Of a stretch of DNA of 64,000 nt, positions 38,966 through 57,462 are shown piece after piece. Position numbers and translations under genes: made by a program. Position 1 is the first letter of the stretch. The number at the start of each line of letters is the position of its first letter. Origin of the DNA: Halostella limicola (GTDB lineage: Archaea; Halobacteriota; Halobacteria; Halobacteriales; Natronoarchaeaceae); assembly GCF_003675875.1 (NCBI RefSeq), contig NZ_ML014752.1, positions 1 through 64,000 on the forward strand, in the 5' to 3' direction. The notes below the pieces were generated by a model that saw only the letters and a program-made list of their open reading frames with translations, ran no database searches and was not told the DNA's origin.

Positions 38966-39316
38966 TCACTTCTCGCCGAGACGGTCGCGGACTTCCGGGG
39001 CGTTCTCGGCGGGTTCGACGCCGGCGATCTGGGAGTCGAAGTCGACGACTCTGAGAGCGGTGAGTTTGGGGAGATGCGTCGCGTAGACGTCGGCCTTCAC
39101 TTCCTCGACCGCCTCGTCGGACACGCGGTTCGGAGCACGGTCGCGCTCCTCCGCGACGATGCGGCGCGCGATGTCGACGACCGGTACCGGGTCGTCGGCG
39201 GGCAGCACCGCCGCCAGCAGTAGCCGCCGACGGGGAGACGCAAGCACCTCCGCGATGACGTCGTCCGGGAGGCGGCCGCCACCGTTCGCCTCCGCATTCG
39301 GGGAGTCTGCGGACAT
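38966..39316 (-). CDS. DUF7344-type small winged-helix-like protein
   Basis: A 116-residue protein. LPDDVIAEVLASPRRRLLLAAVL (about 15-37) is the opening helix pattern of haloarchaeal DUF7344 domains, followed by VVDIARRIVAEER and VKADVYATHLPKLTALRVVDFD, a helix-turn-helix plus wing layout. A DNA-binding regulator is inferred. It is divergent from the chemotaxis transducer. TATA CATATTTATCC (39338-39348) lies about 25-30 nt upstream of the ATG, and a 5-6-5 inverted repeat (ATATG-N6-CATAT, 39344-39359) overlaps it, which could be an autoregulatory site. Confidence 0.75.
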   Translation of the reverse strand: MSADSPNAEANGGGRLPDDVIAEVLASPRRRLLLAAVLPADDPVPVVDIARRIVAEERDRAPNRVSDEAVEEVKADVYATHLPKLTALRVVDFDSQIAGVEPAENAPEVRDRLGEK

Positions 39317-39343
39317 AGATGGCGCTACGAGATCCCGGGATAA

Positions 39344-39359
39344 ATATGGTACCACATAT
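39344..39359. promoter_or_regulatory. Inverted repeat at the DUF7344 promoter
   Basis: ATATG (39344-39348), 6-nt spacer, CATAT (39355-39359), overlapping the TATA element of the DUF7344 gene. It shares the 5-6-5 geometry, but not the sequence, of the two chemotaxis operators. Confidence 0.35.
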
Positions 39360-39461
39360 CACAGCTCTGGCGGGTTTCCCGGCTACCGGTCCCAGCGAGG
39401 CGGCGGTCCAGTCGCGTTCAGTTCCTCGCCGCGCCGCTGAAAATATCCGTCCGGAACACTG

Positions 39462-39477
39462 TTATCGTATTTGATAA
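39462..39477 (+). promoter_or_regulatory. TTATC-N6-GATAA operator of the transducer gene
   Basis: TTATC (39462-39466) and GATAA (39473-39477), spaced 6 nt, end exactly 13 nt before the TATA element. The same half-sites, spacing and distance to TATA occur at the cheY promoter. Confidence 0.65.
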
Positions 39478-39490
39478 TATGCGGGGAGCA

Positions 39491-39496
39491 TTTATG
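39491..39496 (+). promoter_or_regulatory. TATA element of the transducer gene
   Basis: AGCATTTATG, with TTTATG 26-31 nt before ATG 39522. This predicts an essentially leaderless message and supports 39522 as start rather than 39471. Confidence 0.65.
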
Positions 39497-39521: not shown

Positions 39522-42500
39522 ATGATAGGCGGCCTTCGACAACTGGTCCCGAAGTTTATAAGGAGGAGATACGCGCTCAAGTTCGGTATCGCCCTCCTCG
39601 TTCTCGGTCTGTCCGTCGGTGCGATAGGGTACGTGGGGACGGCACAGATCCAGAGCGAAGTGACGACGGACGTGAACCAGGACTACGCGGACCTGGCACA
39701 GCAGGAAGCCGAGAACATCCGGCAGTGGAACGAACGAAACAAGTTACTGACGGAATCGGCGGCGACCTCTGACACCGTCAAAAACGGTGACGTGGACCGC
39801 ATCAACAACGAGTTGAACACGCGCCACGCGTACTCCGGCGGCGAGACGATCAGCATCGACTACGTCGACATGGTCGACGAGACCATCGAGGCGAGTTCGA
39901 ACTCCCAGCGCCGCGGCCTGGCGTTCTCGGAGGTCAACGAGCCCTGGACGGGCGATATCGACACCGGCATGGGCAACGACGTGTACGTGTCGCAGGTTTA
40001 CACCAAGGACGGCACGGCGACGGTGAGCTACGTCCGGGCCATCCCCGGTAGCTCGGACCACGCGGTCGTGTACACGCTCAGCGCCGACGCGTACTCGCAC
40101 CGGTTCCAGAGCTCCGACGACGAGGACGTGCTGACCGTCGTCGCGACGACGGAGAACCGGATCCTCTTCGACGACACGAACGAGCACTCGGGCGTCCAGA
40201 CGTTCGGCGAAACGTACTCCGCCAACGAATCGTTCGTCACGACCGCGACCACCGATGGACGGTCGACCGTCATCGACCGCCCGACTGAAGGGATCGCCAA
40301 TCCCGAGTACGACCTCCCCGATAGCGAACACGTCGTCGGCTACGCGAAGGTCGAAGGCACGAACTGGGTCGTCCTCGTCCACGAGTCGACCGACAGCGCG
40401 TACGGGTTCGTCGGCGACGTTTCCCGATACGGGACGATGGCGACGATCGGCGGCGTCCTCCTCATCGGTCTCGTCGGCGCGGTGCTCGGCCGCAACACCG
40501 CGGCGTCCATCGACCGCCTGCGCTCCAAGACCGAGCAGATGGAGCAGGGGAACTTAGACGTCGAGTTCGAGACGAGCCGGATCGACAACATCGGACGGCT
40601 GTACGAGGGCTTCGCCAGCATGCGCGACGCGCTCAAAGAGCAGATTCAGGAGGCCCGCGAGGCCCGCGAGGAAGCCGAGACGGCCCGGGCCCGAGCAGAA
40701 CAGATGAACCGGCACTTGGAGGCGAAAGCCGACGAGTACAGCGCGGTCATGCAGGAGTGTGCCGACGGCGACCTCACTCAGCGCATGGACTCCGAGTCCG
40801 AGAACGAGGCGATGCAGGACATCGCCGAGGAGTTCAACGAGATGATCGCCGAGATCGAGGACACCACCCAGCAGCTCAAGGACTTCGCGAACGAGGTGGC
40901 CACCTCCAGCGAGGAGGTCACCGCGAGCTCCGAGGAGGTCCGTTCCGCCTCCGAGCAGGTCACCGAGTCCATCCAGGAGATTTCGGACGGCGCCGACCGC
41001 CAGAACGACTCCCTCCAGTCCGTCTCCCAGGAGATGTCCGGCCTCTCGACGACCATCGAGGAGATCGCCTCCTCGTCGAACGAGGTGGCGGACATCGCCG
41101 AGCGGACCGCGACGACCGGCCGCGAGGGTCGTCAGGCGGCCGAGGCGGCGATCGAGGGCATGCGCCAGATCGAGACCGAGTCCGAGCAGGCGGTCGACGA
41201 GATCGAACAGCTCGAGGCCGAGATGGAGCAGATCGACGAGCTGATCGACTTCATCACCGAGATCGCCGAGCAGACCAACATGCTGGCCCTGAACGCCAAC
41301 ATCGAGGCCGCGCGCTCCGGCGAGTCCGGCGAGGGCTTCTCCGTCGTCGCGAGCGAGGTCAAGGAGCTCGCCGAGGACACCAAGGAGGCCGCCGAGGAGA
41401 TCGAGGAGCGCCTCGAACAGATCCAGGACCAGACCGAACGGACCGCGGACGAGGTCCAGCGGACCAGCACGCAGGTCGCAGAGCACACCGACTCCGTCGA
41501 GAACGCTGTCGACGCGCTCGAAGAGATCGCCGGCTACGCCCAGGAGACGAACTCCGGCGTCCAGGAGATCAGCGCGGCGACCGAGCAGCAGGCCGCCTCG
41601 ACCCAGCAGGTCGTCGCGATGGTCGACGAGGCCGCGACCATCAGCGAGGAGACGACCGCGGAGGCCGAGAACGTCGCGGCCGCCGCCGAGGAACAGACCA
41701 CCGCGCTCACCGAAGTGTCCCGCAGCGCGAGCGACCTCGCCGGACAGGCGTCCCGCCTGAGCGAGGCCCTGGACCGCTTCGACACCGACGCCGAGGTCAG
41801 CGGCAGCCTCCTGGAGAAGGACGACGAGGAACCGCTGGTGGACGACGGCGACGAGACGGTCGACGCCGACGAGGCCGACGCTGGAGACGCCGACGAAGCG
41901 GACCCGTCCGGCGCCGACGAGGGGATCGACCTCGGTCCCATCGAGGGCGAGGACTTCGACGTTCCGGCGGAGGGGACGGCCGACGACGGATCGATAGCCG
42001 CCAACCCCGCCACGTTCGACGACGCCGGAGGTGACGGCGACGAGGCGTCGACCGTCGACGACCCCGCCGCCTCGGCCGACGGCGAGGCTGCCGGCGCCGA
42101 GGCGGTCGACGCCGGCGGACAGCAGGCGCAGGTCGAACCGGCGGGCGACGACGCGCCGGCCGACGACGACTTCGGCGGCGACGCGGTCGGCGACGGCCGC
42201 GAGGGCGACGATCCGCTCTCCGTCCCCGACGACCTCGACGGGGAAGCGTCGGACGCCGTGACGCTCGACGACGCCGCGGAAGACGCGACGGACGCGGATG
42301 CTGACCCGCTGGCCGCGCCCGCGCCCGATGAGGCCTCGGCCGCGGACGACGCAGGGGCGGACGAGAACGACGCGGACGACTTCGACGAATCCGACGTCGA
42401 CGAGGCCGTCGCCTTCGACGACGAGTCGGACGAGGCCGTCGACGAGGGCGAGGAGCCCGAGAGCGGCCTGTCGTTCGAGACGTCCGACGTCGAACCGGAC

Positions 42501-42653
42501 GCCGCTGACGAGAGCGCGGAGCCCGCGGCGGACGAAACCGCTGAGAGCGAGGAGAGCGATGCCGCAGAAAGCGACGAGGGCGACGCCGCGGATGCCGACG
42601 GCAGCGACGACGAGGACATGTTCTCGTTCGTCCAGGAAGACCCCGACTCGTAA
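39522..42653 (+). CDS. Methyl-accepting chemotaxis transducer with long acidic tail
   Basis: A 1043-residue membrane receptor. Transmembrane helix 1 spans about 18-40; an extracellular Cache-like sensor about 41-300; helix 2 ([19 protein letters not shown]) about 304-322; HAMP regions about 323-455; and the coiled-coil signalling domain about 455-755. The kinase-binding hairpin [21 protein letters not shown] lies near residue 584. Paired Glu/Gln methylation-type sites occur in the flanking helices. From about 763 to the end (280 residues) the sequence is almost purely Asp/Glu/Ala/Gly/Ser and ends in [12 protein letters not shown], a possible tether for CheR or CheB. Transducers usually stop soon after the coiled coil. 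The ligand is unknown. A T6 run (42671-42676) follows the stop. Confidence 0.92.
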
Positions 42654-42906: not shown

Positions 42907-43710
42907 TCAGTCGCGCCGGTAGATGCGCAGGCGGCCGTCGAGAACGGTGAACGCGGACTTCAGGTTCGGCGGGATCGTCTCGGCCTTGCCGATGACGAGG
43001 TAGCCGCCGGGGCGGATCGACTGCGCGATGGTTTCGAGGATGGGCCGCTTGTACTCGTTGTCGATGTAGATGAACAGGTTCCGACAGACGACGAGGTCGA
43101 ACCCGGACTTCGGGTCGTCGTTGATGAGGTCGTGGTGCTCGAAGGTGACGTGGTCGCGTATCTCGTCGCGCATCGTGAAGGTGTCGCCGTCCCGGTCGAC
43201 GAACCGGAGGTAGTGCGAGAGGTAGCCGAGCTGGTCGTCGATGTCGATGGTCCGGGTGCTCTCGTAGACGCCCTCGCGTGCGTGGTCCAGCGACTTGTCG
43301 TTGATGTCCGTGGCGAGGACCGAGAGCTTCTCCTCGTCGACCCGCGGGTCATCGTGGGCGAGCATCGCGAGCGAGTACGGCTCCCGGCCGTCCGCGCAGG
43401 CGGCGCTCCACGCCCGGATCGTTCGCTGGGACTCGGAGAGGTCCCGGAGGACGTCCCTGATCCCGTCCCAGACGTCCTCGTTCCGGAAGAACCCCGTGAC
43501 GTTGATGCTGAGCGCGTCGAGCAGGGCTTCCTGCTCGTCGGCGTCGTCGCGGAGGAGCCGCAGGTACTCCCGGTAGTCGTCGGAGCCGGTCCGACGCATC
43601 CGGGAGGCGAGCCGCCGCTGGAGGTAACTGTCGTTGTAGTGACTCGTCGCGAAGTCCATCTCGTCCTCGATGAACCCGGCGAGTCGCGCGAACGACTCGT
43701 CGGCGCTCAC
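42907..43710 (-). CDS. cheR: Chemotaxis methyltransferase CheR
   Basis: A 267-residue SAM-dependent enzyme that methylates transducer glutamates. The N-terminal helical part (RLASRMRRTGSDDYREYLRLL) precedes NVTGFFRNEDVW, the SAM site IRAWSAACADGREPYSLAML, VLATDINDKSLDHAREGVY and DLVVCRNLFIYID (catalytic-loop RN). The start is GTG 43710, which overlaps the cheD TGA as GTGA. The apparent 402-residue frame reading further upstream only crosses cheD in another frame. Bacterial CheR has WSAGCSxGEEPYS; here the glycine before Cys is alanine. Confidence 0.93.
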   Translation of the reverse strand: MSADESFARLAGFIEDEMDFATSHYNDSYLQRRLASRMRRTGSDDYREYLRLLRDDADEQEALLDALSINVTGFFRNEDVWDGIRDVLRDLSESQRTIRAWSAACADGREPYSLAMLAHDDPRVDEEKLSVLATDINDKSLDHAREGVYESTRTIDIDDQLGYLSHYLRFVDRDGDTFTMRDEIRDHVTFEHHDLINDDPKSGFDLVVCRNLFIYIDNEYKRPILETIAQSIRPGGYLVIGKAETIPPNLKSAFTVLDGRLRIYRRD

Positions 43711-44231
43711 AGCTCCGTCACGCCCCCTGCGTCCTCGTCGGAGGACGAGATCGTGAGAACCCCCGTTCCCGCGTCGAACTCGACGGTGCGGCCGCGCTGG
43801 CCGCCGACCTCCTCCGCGGCGATCGGGACGCCGAGCTTGTCGAGTTCCTCGCGCGCCGCAACGACGTTTCGCTTGCCGACCGCCTCGCCGAAGCTGTCGA
43901 ACTCGAACATGTCGCTGCCGCCGGCGATCTTCGCCTCGACGTCCGTGTACGTCGCCCCGCGCTCGACCATCTGGCGGAGCATCGCGCGGATGGCGGTGTC
44001 GGCGAACTTCCCGGGGTTCTCCTCGCTGGCGTCGTTGCCGTCGCCGTCCGGGAGCATCACGTGCGCGAGGCCGCCGACGCCGGCGTCGTCGTCGTGCAGG
44101 GCGACGGCGAGACACGACCCGAGGCCGTACGACTTCAGGGTCACGTCCTCGTCGGTGACGTAGAACTCCGAGATGCCGACCTGGATCGGGTCCGGCGTCG
44201 GTGCGCCGGGTTCGCTGCCGTACGTCTTCAT
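43707..44231 (-). CDS. cheD: Chemoreceptor glutamine deamidase CheD
   Basis: A 174-residue enzyme that deamidates receptor glutamines and pairs with CheC. The catalytic cysteine lies in YGLGSCLAVALHD (about 38) and the histidine in GLAHVMLP (about 57). The C-terminal segment KIAGGSDMFEF...VGKRNV matches the family. The first ~18 residues and last ~12 are extra acidic sequence. Four-base overlaps link it to both the double CheC and cheR genes. Confidence 0.92.
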   Translation of the reverse strand: MKTYGSEPGAPTPDPIQVGISEFYVTDEDVTLKSYGLGSCLAVALHDDDAGVGGLAHVMLPDGDGNDASEENPGKFADTAIRAMLRQMVERGATYTDVEAKIAGGSDMFEFDSFGEAVGKRNVVAAREELDKLGVPIAAEEVGGQRGRTVEFDAGTGVLTISSSDEDAGGVTEL

Positions 44232-45472
44232 GATGACTCGACTTCGTCGACCGGGAACTCCGCCGTCGTCTTGGCGTCCTCGACCCGGTCCACGTCGAGG
44301 TCGTTCAGCGCGCGCTCCAGATCCTCCTCGTTGGGGATGGCGTAGATGTCGCAGTCGAACTCGCGGCCCTCCGCCTGGATCTGGGTGTCGAAGACGAACG
44401 CGTACTCCTGGTTCTCGCCGAGGTTGATCACGACGGGGTCGATGACCGCCGCCCCCATGTCGTGGATGAACTCGGGTGTGGAGTGGTCGATCGTCGTGTC
44501 GAGCACGTTCGCCCAGCCGTCGAGGAAGCCGCTGGCCATGATGTTGCCCAGTTCCTTGATGGCGCTCGTCCCCATCTCGCCGAACTCGTCGTCCGGCGGG
44601 GACGGCACCGTCGCCTCGACGACCTCGCGGGCGGACTGCTCGTCGAACAGGAACAGGAGGTAGCCGCTCGGCGTCCCGTCGAAGGAGAAGGCGACGCCGA
44701 CGAGCTTCTCGTCCGCGATCTCCTCGGGGATCGTCTCCAGCGAGACGAAGTTGAGCCGCCGGATGTCGACCGACGTCTCGATGCCGGTCAGCGTCGTCAC
44801 GGCGCTCGCGACCTCCGTCGCGCCCTGCTGGGCGAGGCGGTCGAACCCGACCAGCTTGTCGTACTCGATGCCGTCGCTGTCGTCGTCGCTCTGGCGTTCG
44901 AGGATCTCGGACATCGAGTCGTGCTCGGGGAGCAGGTAGTGTCGGTACCCGATCTCCGTGCCGACCGCCTCGATCTGGCTGTGAAACAGCAGCGCGAGGT
45001 CCTCCTCGCTCGGCGCCGTCTCCAGGTCGCCGAAGAACGGCTCGGCGGTCTCGCCCTCGATGAAGTCGGGCGTCGACACGTCGATGACCGTCCCGAGCAC
45101 GTCGGCCCAGCCGTCGATGAAGCCGTTGGTCATTATCTGGCCGACCTCCATGACGGCGCTCTGGTCCATCTCGTCGAACTCGCCGGACGCCTCGTCCTGG
45201 ACGAGCGTCTGGACGACCTCGCGGGCGGCCTCCCGGTCGAAGATGATGATCGAGTGGCCCTCGAGGCCGGCGCTCAGTTCGACGCGGACGCCGACCTTGT
45301 CGCGCCCGTCGTCGATCTCGGCGCGGATCTCCGAGCCGCGCATGAAGTTGAGCTTCGTCACGCCGACCCGGGTCTGGACGCCGGTCATGCTCGTGAGCCG
45401 GCCGGCGGCCAGCCCCGCGCCCTCCCGCGCCATGCGGTAGAACGTACCGAGTGCGTTGACGTCGAGTTTCAT
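44228..45472 (-). CDS. cheC: Tandem CheC phosphatase-like protein
   Basis: A 414-residue protein made of two CheC domains (about 1-190 and 210-400). The CheY-P phosphatase motif S-x3-E-x2-N-x22-P is intact in the second copy (SAIKELGNIM, ending STP). In the first copy it reads SAVMEVGQIM, with the catalytic Asn replaced by Gln. Thus probably one active site remains, and the first half may bind CheD or CheY only. It overlaps the single-domain cheC and cheD by 4 nt each. Confidence 0.9.
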   Translation of the reverse strand: MKLDVNALGTFYRMAREGAGLAAGRLTSMTGVQTRVGVTKLNFMRGSEIRAEIDDGRDKVGVRVELSAGLEGHSIIIFDREAAREVVQTLVQDEASGEFDEMDQSAVMEVGQIMTNGFIDGWADVLGTVIDVSTPDFIEGETAEPFFGDLETAPSEEDLALLFHSQIEAVGTEIGYRHYLLPEHDSMSEILERQSDDDSDGIEYDKLVGFDRLAQQGATEVASAVTTLTGIETSVDIRRLNFVSLETIPEEIADEKLVGVAFSFDGTPSGYLLFLFDEQSAREVVEATVPSPPDDEFGEMGTSAIKELGNIMASGFLDGWANVLDTTIDHSTPEFIHDMGAAVIDPVVINLGENQEYAFVFDTQIQAEGREFDCDIYAIPNEEDLERALNDLDVDRVEDAKTTAEFPVDEVESS

Positions 45473-46074
45473 GACGGCTGCGCCTCGATACCGTTGACCA
45501 TTTCGACGAACTCTTCCAGGTCGGGGAACGCGTAGATCTCCGCCTCTATCTCGTAGCTTGGGACGTTCATGCTGGAGTCGAAGAACAGCGCGAGGTCCTC
45601 GCCGCCGAGTCCCGCGGTTCTTTCGACTACCTCGCCGGCCGGCGCATATACGAGTTGCGGGGTGGCGATGTCTATCGTCCGGCCCAGCACGTCGGCCCAG
45701 CCGTCGATGAAGCCGCTGGCCATCATGTTGCCCAGTTCCTCGACGGCGCTTCTGGCCATCTCGCCGGAGACGCCGGAGAGGTCGTCGACCATGTCCGACA
45801 GCATCAGGGCGGTGATCTTCTTCGCGCTCGCCTCCGGGAAGAGGATGAGGATGTGCCCGTGCGGGGGCTCCATGAGCCGGACGCGGACGCCGACCCGCTT
45901 CCCGTCGTCGAGCTGCGCCTTGATGTCCTCGATGTCGATGAAGTTGGTCTTGGTGACCTCCATCCGGGCGTCCTCGCCCGTGAGCTTGCTCATGTTGTCG
46001 GCGACGCCGTTCGTCCCGACCTTCGCCATCTCGTTGATGAAACTCAGCTTCCGGATATCGACCATCAGACTCAT
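45469..46074 (-). CDS. cheC: Single-domain CheC phosphatase
   Basis: A 201-residue CheC. The motif SAVEELGNMM...ATP fits S-x3-E-x2-N-x22-P exactly; the N-terminal copy of the motif (SFINEMAK) has Lys in place of Asn, so one active site is expected. The start is ATG 46074, supported by a GAGGAGG Shine-Dalgarno seven bases upstream (46080-46086). The frame reading to 46140 continues into cheA and is not used. It lies 28 nt after the cheA stop. Confidence 0.9.
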   Translation of the reverse strand: MSLMVDIRKLSFINEMAKVGTNGVADNMSKLTGEDARMEVTKTNFIDIEDIKAQLDDGKRVGVRVRLMEPPHGHILILFPEASAKKITALMLSDMVDDLSGVSGEMARSAVEELGNMMASGFIDGWADVLGRTIDIATPQLVYAPAGEVVERTAGLGGEDLALFFDSSMNVPSYEIEAEIYAFPDLEEFVEMVNGIEAQPS

Positions 46075-46079
46075 AGTTG

Positions 46080-46086
46080 CCTCCTC
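46080..46086 (-). promoter_or_regulatory. Shine-Dalgarno site deciding the cheC start
   Basis: GAGGAGG on the minus strand, 5-6 nt before ATG 46074. It is the only clear ribosome-binding site in the operon, where other genes rely on overlap. Confidence 0.55.
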
Positions 46087-46102
46087 GTGTGTGATTTCCC
46101 TG

Positions 46103-49100
46103 TCATAGTGACTCCACGTCCAGAATGTTGACCACGTCACCCTCGCCGAGCACCGTCGCGCCGCTCAGGCCCGGCACGTCGCCGAGCACGCCCTCGTAGG
46201 GCTTGACCACGACCTCCTGCTGGCCGCGGACCTCGTCGCAGTGCAGCGCCACGGGCCGGACGTCGTCGCGGATGCTGACGAGCATCCCGTCGCCGTTCCG
46301 GTGGGTCCCGGGGGTATCGAGCGTCTCGCCGAGCCGGAGGAGGGGGTACTCCGATTGGTCCTCCTCGTCGCCGCGCACGACGACCTCGCGGCCGTCGACG
46401 GTTTCGACGTCGCGGACGGGACCGATGTCCTTGACGTCCTTGATCGGGATGCCGTACTCCTCGTCGCCGGACTGGACGAACAGCACGTCCGCGATGGCGA
46501 CCGTGACCGGCAGGGTCAGCCGGACCGTCGTGCCCTCGCCGGGCGCGCTGTCGACGGCGACGTCGCCGTCTAGGTCGTCGACCGTGCTGGCGACGACGTC
46601 CATCCCGACGCCGCGGCCGCTGACGTCGGTGACCTCCTCGGTCGTCGAGAACCCGGAGTGGAAGATGAGGTCGTACACGTCGTCGTCGTCCATCTCGGCG
46701 ATCTCCGACTCCGTCGCGACGCCCTGTTCGACGGCCTCCCGACGGAGGCGGTCGACGTCGAGGCCGCGACCGTCGTCCTCGATCTCGATGACGACGCGGT
46801 CGCGCTCGCGGCGCGCGCGGAGTTCGATCGTGCCGGTGGGCTCCTTGTCGGCGTCCTCGCGCTCGTCCGGCGACTCGATGCCGTGGTCCACAGCGTTGCG
46901 GACGATGTGGACGAGCGGGTCGCCGATCTCGTTCAGGATGCTCCGGTCGATCTCGACGTCGTCGCCGTGCATCTCGAAGGAGACCTGCTTGCCCTGCTCG
47001 CGGGAGATGTCCCGGACGATGCGGGGCAGCTTGTTCGCCACCGTGTTCAGCGGGACGAGGCGGATGTCCATCACCGTGTCCTGCAGTTCGCCGGTGATGT
47101 CCTCAAGCTCGTCCAGCTCGTCGTCGAGGACGGCCAGCGACTCGCCGCGCTCTATCGCCCGCCGCAGGCGAACGCGGGAGGTGACCATCCCCTCGACGAG
47201 GTTCATCAGGGTGTCGACCTTGTCGACGTCGACGCGGACCGACTGTATCTCCTCGGACCCCGTCGACGGGCCGCTCTGGTCGACGGCCGAGCGGGGCCCG
47301 TCGCCGTCGTCGGCGTCGTCGGCCGACGCGTCCGCGGCAGCGCCGTCCGCGTCGGAACCGGGAGCCGCCGCATCGCCGGCCTCGTCGGCTCCGTCCTCGC
47401 TCTCCTCGGTGTCCGGGGACTGGAAGCCCTCGAACTGGTCTGCGGTTCCGGTCGACGTGTCGAACGCCGAGCCGGAGTCGTCGAGGTCGAGGTCGCCGAA
47501 TTCGCCGGTGTCGACGCCGTCGCCGGCGTCGGCAGCGGTGCCCTCGTCGGTCGGTTCGTCGGCGGTTGCGTCTGCGGACGCGTCCAGCGCGTTCGCGCCG
47601 TCGGCGTCCGTACTACCGAGGTCGGCGCCGGCGGCCGTCGCGTCGTCATCGGCGGTGTCGGTCCCGAAGTCGACGTCGCCGAAGTCGTCTGCGGGCTCCT
47701 CGCTCCCGCCGGCGGTCGCGTCGTCGGTGCCGGTCAGCGAGTCGCTTTCCGTGGATTCGTCGTCGCCTCCCGCGGGCTCGTCGCCGAACCCTTCGCCGAA
47801 GTCGATGTCGCCGAACGGGTCGTCCTCGGCGTCGTCCTCCGAGGCGCTCTCGGGAGCGTCCCCGACCGAGGGCTCGTCCACGCTCGTTCCGACCGCATCC
47901 TCGGCGTCGCCGTCGGTTCCGGCGTCCGCGCTCGCGTCGGCGGGTTCGCCGTCGTCCCCGAAGGCAACGTCACCGAACGCGTCGTCGGCGCCGCTCGCGT
48001 CGAGGTTGTCCCCGTCGTCGATCCCGAGGTCGTCATCGGCACCGACGCCGAGGTCGTCCCCTCCGTCGTCGAGGCCGAACTCCGCCTCGACGTCGATCTC
48101 TTCGTCGCCGTCGAGTTCGGGCTCGGGCGCGTCGGCGTCCTCGCCGAGCAGTTCGTCGAACCCGACCTCGTCGTCGCCGTCGAGCTCGTCGAACTCGAGC
48201 TCCTCGAGTTCGTCCTGTAGCTCGTCGAAGCCGACCGGGTCGACCTCCTCCTTGAGCTCCGCGAACGTGCTGGAGGCGTCCTCGACCTCCTCGTCGGGGC
48301 CTGGCTCCGACTCGGCGTCGGCCGCCTCGACCTCCGACTCCGCCTCGTCGAGCAGTTCGTCGACGTCGGGCTCGTCGTCCGCGGGGTCCGCGTCGGCGTC
48401 CGCGACGGTCGAGACGTCGGGGTCGGCGTCGATGTCGGCGAAGGAGCCGGCGTCGCCGAGGTCGTCTAACCCCTCCATGTCCTCGACCTCGTCGACCATG
48501 GAGTCGAGGTCGTCGAACTGGTCGACCTCCTCGTCAGCGAGCAGGTCGTCGACCGACATGTCCTCCGAGTCCGTCGCGTCGGCCTCGGCCGCGGAGGCGT
48601 CGGTCGCCTCGGCCGTCCCGCCGTCGTCGGCTTCGTCGGCCGCCGGGGCGTCGGCCGTCTCGGCGGCGATCGCCGTCGCGTCCGTGATGATCGCCTCCTC
48701 GACCGCGTCGACCGGTTCGAGCGCGGCGCTTATCGCCGCCTCGCCGACGGGACTGGCGAACGCGGCGTCGAAGGCGGACCCGTAGTCGTCGTCCTCGATG
48801 ACGTCCTCGGACGGGTCGGTGCCGAGGAGGTCGAACGCGTCGCGGAGCGCCTCGACGACGAGGACGCCGTTGTTCACGTCGCCCTCGGCGATCGCGAGGC
48901 GGACGTGGTACACGTCGTGGCCGGCGTCCGCCGGGCGGTTCACCGACGACAGCAGGTCGCGGACCTCGTCGTCGTCCGGGTCCGCGATGCCGCCGGCGTC
49001 GCCGTGCTCGCGGAGGGCGTCGATGGTCGCCGAGGGGTCCGTCCGCGGTTCGCCGTGGCGGCGGACCTCGTCGATCATCCCCTCGAGGAGGTCGACCCCC

Positions 49101-49366
49101 TCGAACACCTGGTCCATCAGGTCCGGCGTGACCTCGGCCGACCCGGTGCGGACCTCCTCGAGGAGGTCCTCCAGGGCGTGTGCGAGGTCGCTGGCGTCGG
49201 AAAAGCCCATCGCGCCGCAGTTCCCCTTGAGGGTGTGGGCGGTCCGGAAGATCTCCTCCATCGCCGCGTCGTCGTCCGGGTCGTTCTCCAGTCGCAACAG
49301 CGCGTTGTTCAGTGCCGTGATGTTCTCTTCGCTCTCCTGAACGAAGTCCCTGACGTACTCATCCAT
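46103..49366 (-). CDS. cheA: Chemotaxis histidine kinase CheA with very long acidic linker
   Basis: A 1087-residue kinase. The HPt domain (1-105) has the phosphorylated His44 in RTAHTLKGN. Residues about 148-235 look like a P2 response-regulator-binding domain. An intrinsically disordered acidic linker covers about 236-704. Then come dimerisation (VDKVDTLMNLVEGMVTSRVRLRR, about 715), HATPase (VRNAVDHGIESPDERE, DDGRGLD, GVGMDVV) and the CheW-like regulatory domain. Typical CheA is 650-700 residues, so the linker accounts for the excess. The linker holds four copies of an FGD[VIL]x[FL] motif. The start ATG 49366 overlaps cheB by 8 nt; the frame up to 49516 is inside cheB. Confidence 0.94.
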   Translation of the reverse strand: MDEYVRDFVQESEENITALNNALLRLENDPDDDAAMEEIFRTAHTLKGNCGAMGFSDASDLAHALEDLLEEVRTGSAEVTPDLMDQVFEGVDLLEGMIDEVRRHGEPRTDPSATIDALREHGDAGGIADPDDDEVRDLLSSVNRPADAGHDVYHVRLAIAEGDVNNGVLVVEALRDAFDLLGTDPSEDVIEDDDYGSAFDAAFASPVGEAAISAALEPVDAVEEAIITDATAIAAETADAPAADEADDGGTAEATDASAAEADATDSEDMSVDDLLADEEVDQFDDLDSMVDEVEDMEGLDDLGDAGSFADIDADPDVSTVADADADPADDEPDVDELLDEAESEVEAADAESEPGPDEEVEDASSTFAELKEEVDPVGFDELQDELEELEFDELDGDDEVGFDELLGEDADAPEPELDGDEEIDVEAEFGLDDGGDDLGVGADDDLGIDDGDNLDASGADDAFGDVAFGDDGEPADASADAGTDGDAEDAVGTSVDEPSVGDAPESASEDDAEDDPFGDIDFGEGFGDEPAGGDDESTESDSLTGTDDATAGGSEEPADDFGDVDFGTDTADDDATAAGADLGSTDADGANALDASADATADEPTDEGTAADAGDGVDTGEFGDLDLDDSGSAFDTSTGTADQFEGFQSPDTEESEDGADEAGDAAAPGSDADGAAADASADDADDGDGPRSAVDQSGPSTGSEEIQSVRVDVDKVDTLMNLVEGMVTSRVRLRRAIERGESLAVLDDELDELEDITGELQDTVMDIRLVPLNTVANKLPRIVRDISREQGKQVSFEMHGDDVEIDRSILNEIGDPLVHIVRNAVDHGIESPDEREDADKEPTGTIELRARRERDRVVIEIEDDGRGLDVDRLRREAVEQGVATESEIAEMDDDDVYDLIFHSGFSTTEEVTDVSGRGVGMDVVASTVDDLDGDVAVDSAPGEGTTVRLTLPVTVAIADVLFVQSGDEEYGIPIKDVKDIGPVRDVETVDGREVVVRGDEEDQSEYPLLRLGETLDTPGTHRNGDGMLVSIRDDVRPVALHCDEVRGQQEVVVKPYEGVLGDVPGLSGATVLGEGDVVNILDVESL

Positions 49367-50540
49367 GCGTATCACCGTCCGTGGTGGCCGCGTCGACGAT
49401 CCCCCGCGTGAGGTCGCCCACGTCGAGGACCGAGTCGACGCAACCTGTTTCGATAGCCTGCTTCGGGATACCGAAGACGGGGCTCGACGCCTCGTCCTGA
49501 GCGACCGTCGCACCACCCGCCTGCTTTATCGCCTCGATGCCGGCAGCGCCGTCTCTCCCCATGCCGGTCAGGGCGACGCCGACGAGCGGGGCGGGGACGA
49601 CGTCCGCGGCGGACTCCATCGTCTCGTCGATCGCCGGACGCACGCCGTGGCGGCGCTCGCCCTTCGTCAGCCGGAGGCGGAGTTCGTCGTCGCTCGCTTC
49701 GGCGACGCGCATGTGGAACCCGCCTTTCGCGATGACTGCTTCGCCGGGGCCGACGCGCCGGCCGTGGCTCGCTTCGGAGACGTCGTACTCCGAGAGCGCG
49801 TCCAGGCGGGCGGCGAGCCTGTCCGTGAAGCTCGCGGGCATGTGCTGAACGACCAGCACGCGCGCCCGGAGGTCCGCGGGGAGCTCGTAGAGTATCCGCT
49901 CGACGACCTTCGGACCGCCGGTCGACGCGCCGATGACGATCGTCGGCGCGCCGTCAGAGAGGTCGCGGTCGACCGTCGTGACGGGGCCCTCGCCTGCGAT
50001 ATCGGGTGTGACGGTCGTTTCGACGCCGGACGCGCCGTCGACCGTGCTCGTGCCGACGGTCGTCTCCGCGGCGGAGTCGACGACGGCGGCCGTCCGCTCG
50101 GCCGACTCCGCGGCGCGCGACGCCGCTCGCGCGGCGACGACGGACGAGACGTCCGCCCGTTCGACCGCGCGGACCTTCTCTGTCAGCCGCGACTCCAGTT
50201 CGCCGACGTCCGACGGGCGCTCCTCCTCGTCCTTGGCCATGAAGTCGACCGCGCCCTTCGCGAGCGCCTCGAGCGTGGCGTCGGCCCCCGCTTCGGTGTG
50301 GGCCGACAGCATGAGGATGCGCGTCGGAGACGTCGCCATGATCTCGTCGACAGCTTCGATGCCGTCCATGCCGGGCATCTCCACGTCCATCGTGACGAGG
50401 TCCGGTTCGAGGTCGCGGGCGGTCTCGACGGCGCTCTCGCCGTCGGCCGCGCGGTGGACCTCGTAGCCCTGCTTGGACAGGATGTTGCCGATCACAGTTC
50501 GCATGAACTGCGAGTCATCGACAACCAGGACGCTGGTCAT
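49359..50540 (-). CDS. cheB: Receptor methylesterase/deamidase CheB
   Basis: A 393-residue response regulator and esterase. The receiver has phospho-acceptor Asp52 in TMDVEMPGMDG. After a linker of roughly 75 residues rich in Ala/Thr/Val (longer than usual), the esterase shows the catalytic triad: Ser in IGASTGGPKVVE, His in VVQHMPASFT and Asp in TGMGRDGAAG. It demethylates transducers when phosphorylated by CheA. The start ATG 50540 overlaps the cheY TGA by 4 nt. Confidence 0.94.
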   Translation of the reverse strand: MTSVLVVDDSQFMRTVIGNILSKQGYEVHRAADGESAVETARDLEPDLVTMDVEMPGMDGIEAVDEIMATSPTRILMLSAHTEAGADATLEALAKGAVDFMAKDEEERPSDVGELESRLTEKVRAVERADVSSVVAARAASRAAESAERTAAVVDSAAETTVGTSTVDGASGVETTVTPDIAGEGPVTTVDRDLSDGAPTIVIGASTGGPKVVERILYELPADLRARVLVVQHMPASFTDRLAARLDALSEYDVSEASHGRRVGPGEAVIAKGGFHMRVAEASDDELRLRLTKGERRHGVRPAIDETMESAADVVPAPLVGVALTGMGRDGAAGIEAIKQAGGATVAQDEASSPVFGIPKQAIETGCVDSVLDVGDLTRGIVDAATTDGDTHG

Positions 50541-50899
50541 GCCGGAACGACGTCCTTGAGGGCCTTCCTGACGCTCGGCTCCTCGAACGGCTTCGTCACG
50601 TAGCCGTCCGCGCCGGCTTTGACCGCGAGCTTCATCTTCTCGCGCTGCCCGACGCTGGTACACATGATGACCCGCGAGTCGGGATCGAGCTTCTTGATGG
50701 CCGCCGTGGCCTTGATCCCGTTACACTTGGGCATCACGATGTCCATCATCACGATGTCCGGGTTCTGTTCTTTGTAGAGTTTTACCGCTTCGGCTCCGTT
50801 GGACGCCTCTCCGACGATGTGATAGTCGTCTTCGAGAATCTGTCTGAGTAGATTTCGCATAAAATGAGAGTCGTCCACTATGAGGACCCCTGTCGACAT
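50537..50899 (-). CDS. cheY: Response regulator CheY
   Basis: A 120-residue single receiver domain that carries the signal to the archaellum motor. Acidic pocket Asp9-Asp10, phospho-acceptor Asp53 (MMDIVMPKCNG), the switch Thr/Ser in MCTSVGQ and Lys in VTKPFEEP are all present. First gene of the seven-gene che operon. Its promoter carries TATA TTTATG (50938-50943) and a palindromic operator. Confidence 0.95.
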   Translation of the reverse strand: MSTGVLIVDDSHFMRNLLRQILEDDYHIVGEASNGAEAVKLYKEQNPDIVMMDIVMPKCNGIKATAAIKKLDPDSRVIMCTSVGQREKMKLAVKAGADGYVTKPFEEPSVRKALKDVVPA

Positions 50900-50937
50900 T
50901 CAGTTGATACACCAGAAACTGCTAGATGTAGCGGAAC

Positions 50938-50943
50938 CATAAA
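50938..50943 (-). promoter_or_regulatory. TATA element of the cheY operon
   Basis: The minus strand reads AGCATTTATGG, the same core as in the transducer promoter. It predicts a leader of roughly 14 nt before ATG 50899. Confidence 0.65.
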
Positions 50944-50953
50944 TGCTATCGCC

Positions 50954-50975
50954 CCGTTATCACCGGTGATAACGG
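50954..50975. promoter_or_regulatory. Perfect 22-bp palindrome upstream of the cheY operon
   Basis: Each half is CCGTTATCACC followed by its exact complement, with TTATC-N6-GATAA at the core (50957-50972). The proximal half-site ends 13 nt before the TATA element, identical to the transducer gene. It lies in the 164-nt gap between cheW1 and cheY and is a probable operator. Confidence 0.75.
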
Positions 50976-51063: not shown

Positions 51064-51633
51064 TCACCCGGCGCTCTCCACGAGCAGGTCGGCGTCGATG
51101 ACCGAGATGCGCTCGGCGGGGGCGTCCGCGTCGTCGTCCTCGGGCGGGATCTCGACGACCGCCTTGACGAGGTCGCCGGCGGGCATCTGAAACTCCGGTT
51201 CGTCCCGCCGGATCCGGCTGACGGGGAACGACTCGACGCCCTCCACGGCGTCGACGCGGATGCCCGCGCTCTGCTTGTCGGATGCGCGGTCGAAGACGAC
51301 GACGCGCTGGGTGTCCTCCCCCTCCGCCGCGCTCGAGACCGGGAGCAGGACGCCAGGGTCGATGACCGCCGTGATCTCGCCGCGGAGGTCCATGACGCCC
51401 TCGACGGCCTCGCTCGACCGGGGCACGCGCGTCCGCTCGCCGACCTCGACGATGCTTCGCACGTCCGCGACGTCGAGGCCGTAGGACTGCTCGCCGAGTT
51501 TGAACACGAGGACGCGCTCGTGCTCTTCCGGCTCCTCATCGCCTTCACCGTCCTCTCTCACGTCCGCGTCTTGCTCGTCGTCGAGGCCCACCTCGTCCAC
51601 GCCGAGTAGTTCTTCGGGGAGGTTCGTTGACAT
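51064..51633 (-). CDS. cheW: Coupling protein CheW (CheW1)
   Basis: A 189-residue adaptor linking transducers to CheA. After an acidic N-terminal extension (about 40 residues) the CheW beta-barrel runs VLVFKLGEQSYGLDVADVRSIVEV, VMDLRGEITAVIDPGVLL and RVDAVEGVESFPVSRI. Bacterial CheW is about 155-165 residues. It lies upstream of cheY but the promoter between them suggests separate or additional transcription. Divergent from the second CheW-like gene. Confidence 0.93.
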   Translation of the reverse strand: MSTNLPEELLGVDEVGLDDEQDADVREDGEGDEEPEEHERVLVFKLGEQSYGLDVADVRSIVEVGERTRVPRSSEAVEGVMDLRGEITAVIDPGVLLPVSSAAEGEDTQRVVVFDRASDKQSAGIRVDAVEGVESFPVSRIRRDEPEFQMPAGDLVKAVVEIPPEDDDADAPAERISVIDADLLVESAG

Positions 51634-52182: not shown

Positions 52183-52248
52183 GCCGTCGTCGAACGTACC
52201 AGACAGCCGGAAGATTCAAATATGATAATTTAATACCTCTTCGAAAGG

Positions 52249-52599
52249 ATGGCCGCCACCCAGACCGAAGACGTCGACTCCAGATCCCTCCTCGCCGCGC
52301 TCGGGAGCAAGTACAGCGTCGAGATCCTCCACGCGACGCGCACGCCGACCTCCGCACAGGAACTGAGCGACGAACTGGACGTTCCGATCGCGACCTGCTA
52401 CCGCCGGATCGAGGAGTTGGTCGACGCCGGGCTCCTCAAGTGCGAGGGGCGACAGCTCTCCGAGGAGGGCCGACGGACCAATGTCTACCGGCGGACGCTC
52501 GACGAGCTCACCGTCGATCTCACCTGCGAGTCGCCGACGGTGCAACGCAAGGAGCGCTCCGAGGCGAAAAACCGCATTCAGGACCAGATCGACGGCTGA
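52249..52599 (+). CDS. ArsR-like winged-helix transcriptional regulator
   Basis: A 116-residue protein. LLAALGSKYSVEILHATRTPTSAQELSDELDVPIATCYRRIEELVDAGLLKC (about 14-65) is a winged helix, with the recognition helix at IATCYRRIEELV. The C-terminal part (about 85-116) is charged and helical, perhaps for dimerisation. Target genes are unknown; proximity makes it one candidate for the chemotaxis operators. The AT-rich upstream block (52219-52238) holds its promoter. Confidence 0.85.
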   Translation: MAATQTEDVDSRSLLAALGSKYSVEILHATRTPTSAQELSDELDVPIATCYRRIEELVDAGLLKCEGRQLSEEGRRTNVYRRTLDELTVDLTCESPTVQRKERSEAKNRIQDQIDG

Positions 52600-57033: not shown

Positions 57034-57462
57034 TTATTTGAGCCGTTCCTGCAGGAACGAGGGGTGGGCGGCCGTCACGCCGTCGATTTCGAGCAGGCCG
57101 TCGCTGATGATCTCGCCGAGTTCGTCCCCGTCGGCGGCGCGAACCTCGGCCATGAGCATGTGGTCGCCCGAGGAGGTAAACAGCGCCTCGACCTCGTCTA
57201 ACTGTTTCAGTTCCTTCGTCGCCTCGACGTAGCGCTCGCTCTCCACGTCGATACCCACCATCGCGATGCTCTGGCTGGAGAGCTTCTTGGGGTCGATGTC
57301 CGCCGAGTACCCGACGATGACGCCCTCCGACTCCAGCTTGTCGATGTACTTTCGTACCGTCGGCTTGGAGACGTCGGCCCGATCGGCGATCTCCGCGTAG
57401 GAGGCCTGGGCGTCGTCCTCGAGGACAGAGAGTATACGATCTTCCGTGGACTGCGTACTCAT
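57034..57462 (-). CDS. lrp: Lrp/AsnC-family regulator
   Basis: A 142-residue regulator. Winged helix in RILSVLEDDAQASYAEIADRADVSKPTVRKYIDKLESEGVIVGY (about 8-52) and an effector-binding RAM domain (about 65-140) ending DGVTAAHPSFLQERLK. It lies directly downstream of porB, separated by a hairpin terminator, and is a likely controller of itself and perhaps of porAB. An inverted repeat overlaps its TATA box. Confidence 0.9.
   Translation of the reverse strand: MSTQSTEDRILSVLEDDAQASYAEIADRADVSKPTVRKYIDKLESEGVIVGYSADIDPKKLSSQSIAMVGIDVESERYVEATKELKQLDEVEALFTSSGDHMLMAEVRAADGDELGEIISDGLLEIDGVTAAHPSFLQERLK

Follow-up and report, generated by a model that had tools for sequence, protein, structure and literature searches.

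A conserved palindrome before cheY of Halostella limicola is a predicted operator of the CsmR type

What does a perfect palindrome do at the head of an archaeal chemotaxis operon, and which protein could read it? The question is raised by a stretch of 64,000 nucleotides (nt) from Halostella limicola (contig NZ_ML014752.1, positions 1 to 64,000; 'the window' from here on), in which the sequence CCGTTATCACCGGTGATAACGG at 50954-50975, within the gap between cheW1 (51064-51633, minus strand) and cheY (50537-50899, minus strand), equals its own reverse complement over 22 base pairs (bp), as a preliminary description of this DNA had correctly observed. Our answer, to which we assign a probability of roughly 0.78, is that the promoter of the che-only operon cheYBACCDR has in this palindrome a predicted operator for a transcription factor of the CsmR type, that the same operator sets a transducer gene, and that the likeliest binder is the product of the gene at 52249-52599. 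The kind of operator is already known; new is the wiring variant, with a che-only operon and a che-associated paralogue of the regulator. The elements of the cheY promoter are the following:

50954-50975, no strand: perfect palindrome of 22 bp, the longest in the window.
50957-50972, minus strand: conserved operator core TTATCA-N4-TGATAA with the CsmR-type site TATCA(N4)TGATA, based on column conservation in 34 non-redundant loci and on the motif match to PMC13286277.
50946-50956, minus strand: 11-nt spacer from TGATAA to the TATA box, with the presumed B recognition element (BRE; CGGGGCGATAG here).
50939-50945, minus strand: TATA box CATTTAT of the cheY promoter, lying 11 nt downstream of the conserved core.

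By length alone the palindrome is suggestive, mildly improbable and not decisive. The runners-up in the window measure 20, 18 and 18 bp, and the number of perfect palindromes of at least 22 bp expected per 64 kb is 0.05 on basis of base composition, 0.1 in an order-2 Markov simulation and around 0.23 when derived from the 4 that were found in 1.12 Mb of related loci. The earlier statement that such a 22-mer is unlikely to arise by chance thus stands insofar as the element is unusual, and somewhat overstated its rarity. The palindrome is significant because its core is conserved across relatives, and not because of its length.

This conservation was assessed in 59 haloarchaeal cheY loci (L009-L067) that were obtained in a scan with the CheY protein and that make up 60 sequences together with the window; column statistics were restricted to 34 non-redundant ones. 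The element TATC-N6-GATA followed by a TATA word is present upstream of cheY in 56 of the 59 loci, in nearly all of them 71-72 bp before the start codon, and the right half-site lies exactly 11 nt before a CATTTAT-type TATA word in 59 of the 60 sequences. Within the non-redundant set the half-sites TTATCA and TGATAA reach 1.4-2.0 bits per column, against mostly 0.0-0.3 bits in the DNA that precedes the operator, and both the length of the spacer and the TTTAT of the TATA box (34/34) are fixed. The alignment of orthologous cheW1-cheY gaps, which had been proposed as a check, therefore bears out the suggestion of a regulator site just upstream of the BRE and TATA box, as the element is kept at the right distance while its flanks drift. 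The additional symmetric pairs that extend the core to 22 bp (two inner and three outer ones, i.e. the CCGG centre and the CC/GG ends) are complementary in only 4/34, 5/34, 8/34, 16/34 and 22/34 of the non-redundant relatives, respectively. Since this is about what the make-up of the columns predicts, the predicted functional unit is the 16-bp operator TTATCA-N4-TGATAA, and the perfect 22 bp is private to this lineage. The longer palindrome is therefore no argument for a stronger site, and the former view that this copy, being longer and cleaner than the one before the transducer gene, is the stronger of the two has to be abandoned. A separate stretch at 50897-50914 (TGGTGTA...CTGAATG), which runs up to and into the cheY start, is also nearly invariant across the loci and likely represents the Shine-Dalgarno sequence and start context.

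The core TATCA-CCGG-TGATA (50958-50971) matches exactly the motif TATCA(N4)TGATA that was obtained by chromatin immunoprecipitation sequencing (ChIP-seq) for CsmR of Haloferax volcanii (HVO_1209, a winged-helix protein of 13 kDa; PMC13286277, June 2026). At promoters of archaellum and chemotaxis genes CsmR binds next to the TATA box, and its motif, which was found in 50 of 65 peaks, forms part of a promoter motif of around 34 bp (PMC13286277). The Halostella element shares the semi-palindromic form, the set distance and orientation relative to the TATA box and the location upstream of chemotaxis genes. Archaellum-type loci to which a CsmR is linked have an equal operator, with the same 11-nt spacing, before cheY or the archaellin genes. 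In three of the archaellum-type loci (L118:5958, L119:5996, L126:6187) a further operator-like site (TTATCA-N4-.GATATTTTC) was observed just downstream of csmR.

The second copy of the operator, whose existence had been noted before and is confirmed here, is located 11.5 kb from the cheY promoter:

39461-39478, plus strand: second operator copy GTTATCGTATTTGATAAT; in four further Halostella genomes the same gene is preceded by an orthologous site.
39489-39495, plus strand: TATA box CATTTAT of the transducer promoter, at the same 11-nt spacing from the operator.
39522-42653, plus strand: gene of a methyl-accepting transducer (PF00015, 2.1e-40; HAMP domain PF00672, 2e-8).

Allowing up to 3 mismatches, the spaced pattern occurs in only two places of the 4.1-Mb genome, before the che operon and before this transducer gene, and the reversed control gave 0. 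The same pair, the cheY site and the site before the orthologous transducer gene, was recovered in all five Halostella genomes, as the only clear sites there. A relaxed pattern identified eight further places with one mismatch in the genome of H. limicola, and none of these eight was found to adjoin a che or transducer gene; a wider regulon in this genome is consequently unproven. A place beyond the window, G000:C1:91894-91925, near genes for TatA and a peroxiredoxin-like protein, has good half-sites (TATCAGTAATGATAA) and lacks a CATTTAT at the right distance. A DUF7344 gene (38966-39352) is divergent from the transducer gene, and a match to it lies beside the transducer gene in some of the relatives, not in all.

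Which protein reads the operator? We infer that it is the product of a gene 1.3 kb from the palindrome:

52249-52599, plus strand: CsmR-family winged-helix regulator of 116 amino acids and proposed binder, on basis of domain, fold and kinship.
52214-52228, plus strand: degenerate copy ATTCA-AATA-TGATAA, around 26 nt before the regulator start, of which TTCAA..TGATAAT is kept in Halostella, Haloarchaeobius and Halorubellus.

The protein contains an HTH_20 domain (4.6e-12) and, like CsmR, is about 13 kDa in size with an N-terminal winged helix. Its predicted structure is a winged-helix model (mean predicted local distance difference test score, pLDDT, of 81), for which Foldseek ranked Phr (2P4W) first (E 5.8e-5), the same structure as was reported for CsmR (PMC13286277). 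Whereas CsmR was classed as Lrp/AsnC by its authors (PMC13286277), no match to PF01037 or PF13404 was found in the 52249 protein, which gave ArsR/Phr-like hits instead and in this respect is not a member of Lrp/AsnC. Its kinship was judged against the archaellin-linked members of the family. Relatives of the protein adjoin archaellin genes, and one of these (L124; reciprocal best match, 56% identity) also adjoins a KaiC-like gene, a csmR-like neighbourhood. In its recognition helix, PIATCYRRI, the protein hardly differs from the archaellin-linked members. The degenerate copy before the regulator gene may weakly hint at an autoregulatory half-site or may be the gene's own TATA box and BRE.

Reciprocal best matches had at first led to the assumption that the 52249 protein is the strict orthologue of HVO_1209, which was withdrawn after inspection of two-copy genomes and of the family tree. 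Two genomes, G032 (L202) and G043 (L203), with L123 and L133, each contain a CsmR-family gene beside archaellin and a second one beside a che-only operon. In the tree of 63 members, whose resolution is limited by its 117 columns, the che-linked copies form a supported clade (96/97) together with the copies of one further family holding a che-only operon, and this clade contains no archaellin-linked copies; a single che-linked sequence, which occurs twice (L059, L116), falls outside on a long branch. Given the genomes with both copies and the separate clade, and with no co-occurrence with archaellin as would mark a strict CsmR orthologue, the 52249 protein is best called a che-associated CsmR-family paralogue, and not CsmR itself; it looks like a paralogue dedicated to che.

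The five Halostella genomes (G000, G001-G004; one 89% complete, the others 99%) all contain the complete che operon and the transducer gene, and in none of them was archaellin (PF01917), ArlD/E or CheF detected, the control searches in H. volcanii being positive. That the genomes belong to Halostella is judged from the identity of CheY with that of Halostella pelagica and, in one congener, from identity of the flanking DNA as well. Among 13 near-complete genomes without archaellin, the CsmR family (E < 1e-20) is present in 7/7 with this che operon and in 0/6 without it (P = 0.0006, a value that overstates independence as the genomes are related). The report that csmR always accompanies arlA1/arlA2 in Halobacteria (PMC13286277) does not hold for the che-linked branch. 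It is an even bet, in our estimate, that the CsmR family split long ago into a branch tied to the archaellum and a branch tied to a che operon that is independent of it, with both reading the same operator, and that Halostella keeps only the second branch, which would control a complete chemosensory pathway with an output other than the archaellum.

How such an operator might work can be sketched on basis of its geometry. A dimer of the CsmR-family protein would place its recognition helices on the half-sites TTATCA and TGATAA. As the centre of the operator lies around 22 bp upstream of that of the TATA box, on the TFB side, the dimer would be placed adjacent to the BRE, at a distance of about two helical turns from the TATA box, and be able to touch TFB/TBP; such contact with the initiation complex is suggested because the spacing between operator and TATA box is fixed. 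Because operator and spacing are equal at the che operon and the transducer gene, receptor and signalling genes would be set together. The sign of the regulation could be that of an activator, as the position suggests and as the authors of the CsmR study concluded from it (PMC13286277), or that of a repressor, as suggested by the up-regulation in the csmR deletion; we lean slightly towards an activator or a context-dependent factor.

Several observations weigh against this assignment. Deletion of csmR in H. volcanii causes the motif-bearing genes to rise most (PMC13286277), which conflicts with simple activation. Two loci (L011 and L013) have lost a clear left half-site and keep only the right half, at the correct spacing, while retaining the regulator gene, and in a third (L060) the centre is shortened, altering the spacing of the half-sites. 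In the Natrialbaceae loci the regulator gene is not found within 10 kb of the che operon. Finally, the 52249 protein lies in a clade apart from archaellin-linked CsmR and may differ from it in specificity.

Other explanations of the element were weighed as well. The operator could belong to another factor with a similar palindrome, and two candidates are encoded in the window itself, an Lrp/AsnC protein with a full AsnC domain (57037-57462) and the DUF7344 protein next to the transducer gene. We consider this unlikely, given that the motif is that of CsmR, described by its authors as unlike known Lrp/AsnC motifs (PMC13286277), that a DUF7344 match accompanies the transducer gene in only some of the relatives having the site, and that the CsmR family occurs in step with the che operon and archaellin. 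Less probable still is an extended core promoter of unusual conservation, made up of the BRE and DNA upstream of it, that is read by TFB/TBP alone. It would account for a spacer and TATA box that are conserved as strongly as the half-sites, but a two-fold symmetry centred around 22 bp before the TATA box is no feature of a BRE, very few promoters in the genome carry the element, and in H. volcanii CsmR binds this very element (PMC13286277).

Since the palindrome is flanked by two genes of the same strand, it could also be taken for a terminator of transcription, or an RNA hairpin, behind cheW1. This reading was rejected as highly improbable: no T-run follows the palindrome on the cheW1 strand, the distance to the downstream TATA box is fixed, and no gene of the same strand precedes the copy at 39461, because its neighbour (38966-39352) is divergent; moreover, a symmetry without a loop fits a dimer site in DNA. 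Chance, finally, gains something from an expectation of 0.05-0.23 per window and from the lineage-specific outermost and innermost pairs, but for the core it was discarded as next to negligible, the core being conserved across many genera while the flanks drift. The CsmR-type operator is thus the reading that we retain. It carries CsmR over from a single species, for whose swimming the regulator was described in 2026, to a large set of haloarchaea, with an operator that is predicted to the base, and it indicates that the CsmR family is not confined to archaellum genes. It also points to a chemosensory pathway in archaea in which no archaellum is detectable.

The operon that would be controlled in this way is a che-only cheYBACCDR with divergent cheW genes, as delineated by open reading frames (ORFs):

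51064-51633, minus strand: cheW1, the neighbour upstream of the palindrome; no conserved operator copy lies in the divergent promoter region of cheW1/cheW2.
50537-50899, minus strand: cheY, first gene of the operon (PF00072, 4.4e-32), 100% identical to that of Halostella pelagica.
42907-50540, minus strand: remainder of the operon, in the order cheYBACCDR, on basis of ORFs, the order in relatives and the Natrialba magadii operon (PMC3403918).
49359-50540, minus strand: cheB (ORF).
46103-49366, minus strand: cheA (ORF).
45469-46140, minus strand: cheC (ORF).
44228-45472, minus strand: cheC-like gene (ORF).
43707-44231, minus strand: cheD (ORF).
Ending at 42907, minus strand: cheR (ORF).

An operator at the cheW1/cheW2 divergent promoter was considered and dismissed, as a similar string is present in the window and is not conserved across the genus.

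The closest known arrangement is that of Natrialba magadii, where a cheYBACCDR locus of che genes only lies apart from a fla-linked che locus with cheF (PMC3403918). The gene order, the divergent cheW arrangement and the absence of an archaellum gene alongside are shared with Halostella; unlike Halostella, with no CheF or archaellin detected, N. magadii has this second, fla-linked locus with two cheF genes. From the CsmR system of H. volcanii the Halostella system differs in having only two strong sites found per genome, compared to 65 genes with ChIP peaks, and in serving a che-only operon in a genus without detected archaellin, ArlD/E or CheF, with a regulator from a separate clade. The two systems are alike in their half-sites, in the 4-nt centre and in the placement upstream of the BRE and TATA box at chemotaxis promoters, as well as in a regulator of similar size with an N-terminal winged helix and 2P4W as its top structural relative. 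A likeness extends to EarA, the archaellum activator of Methanococcus and Pyrococcus, which is also a winged-helix factor acting just upstream of the BRE at motility promoters, and which has been proposed to recruit TFB.
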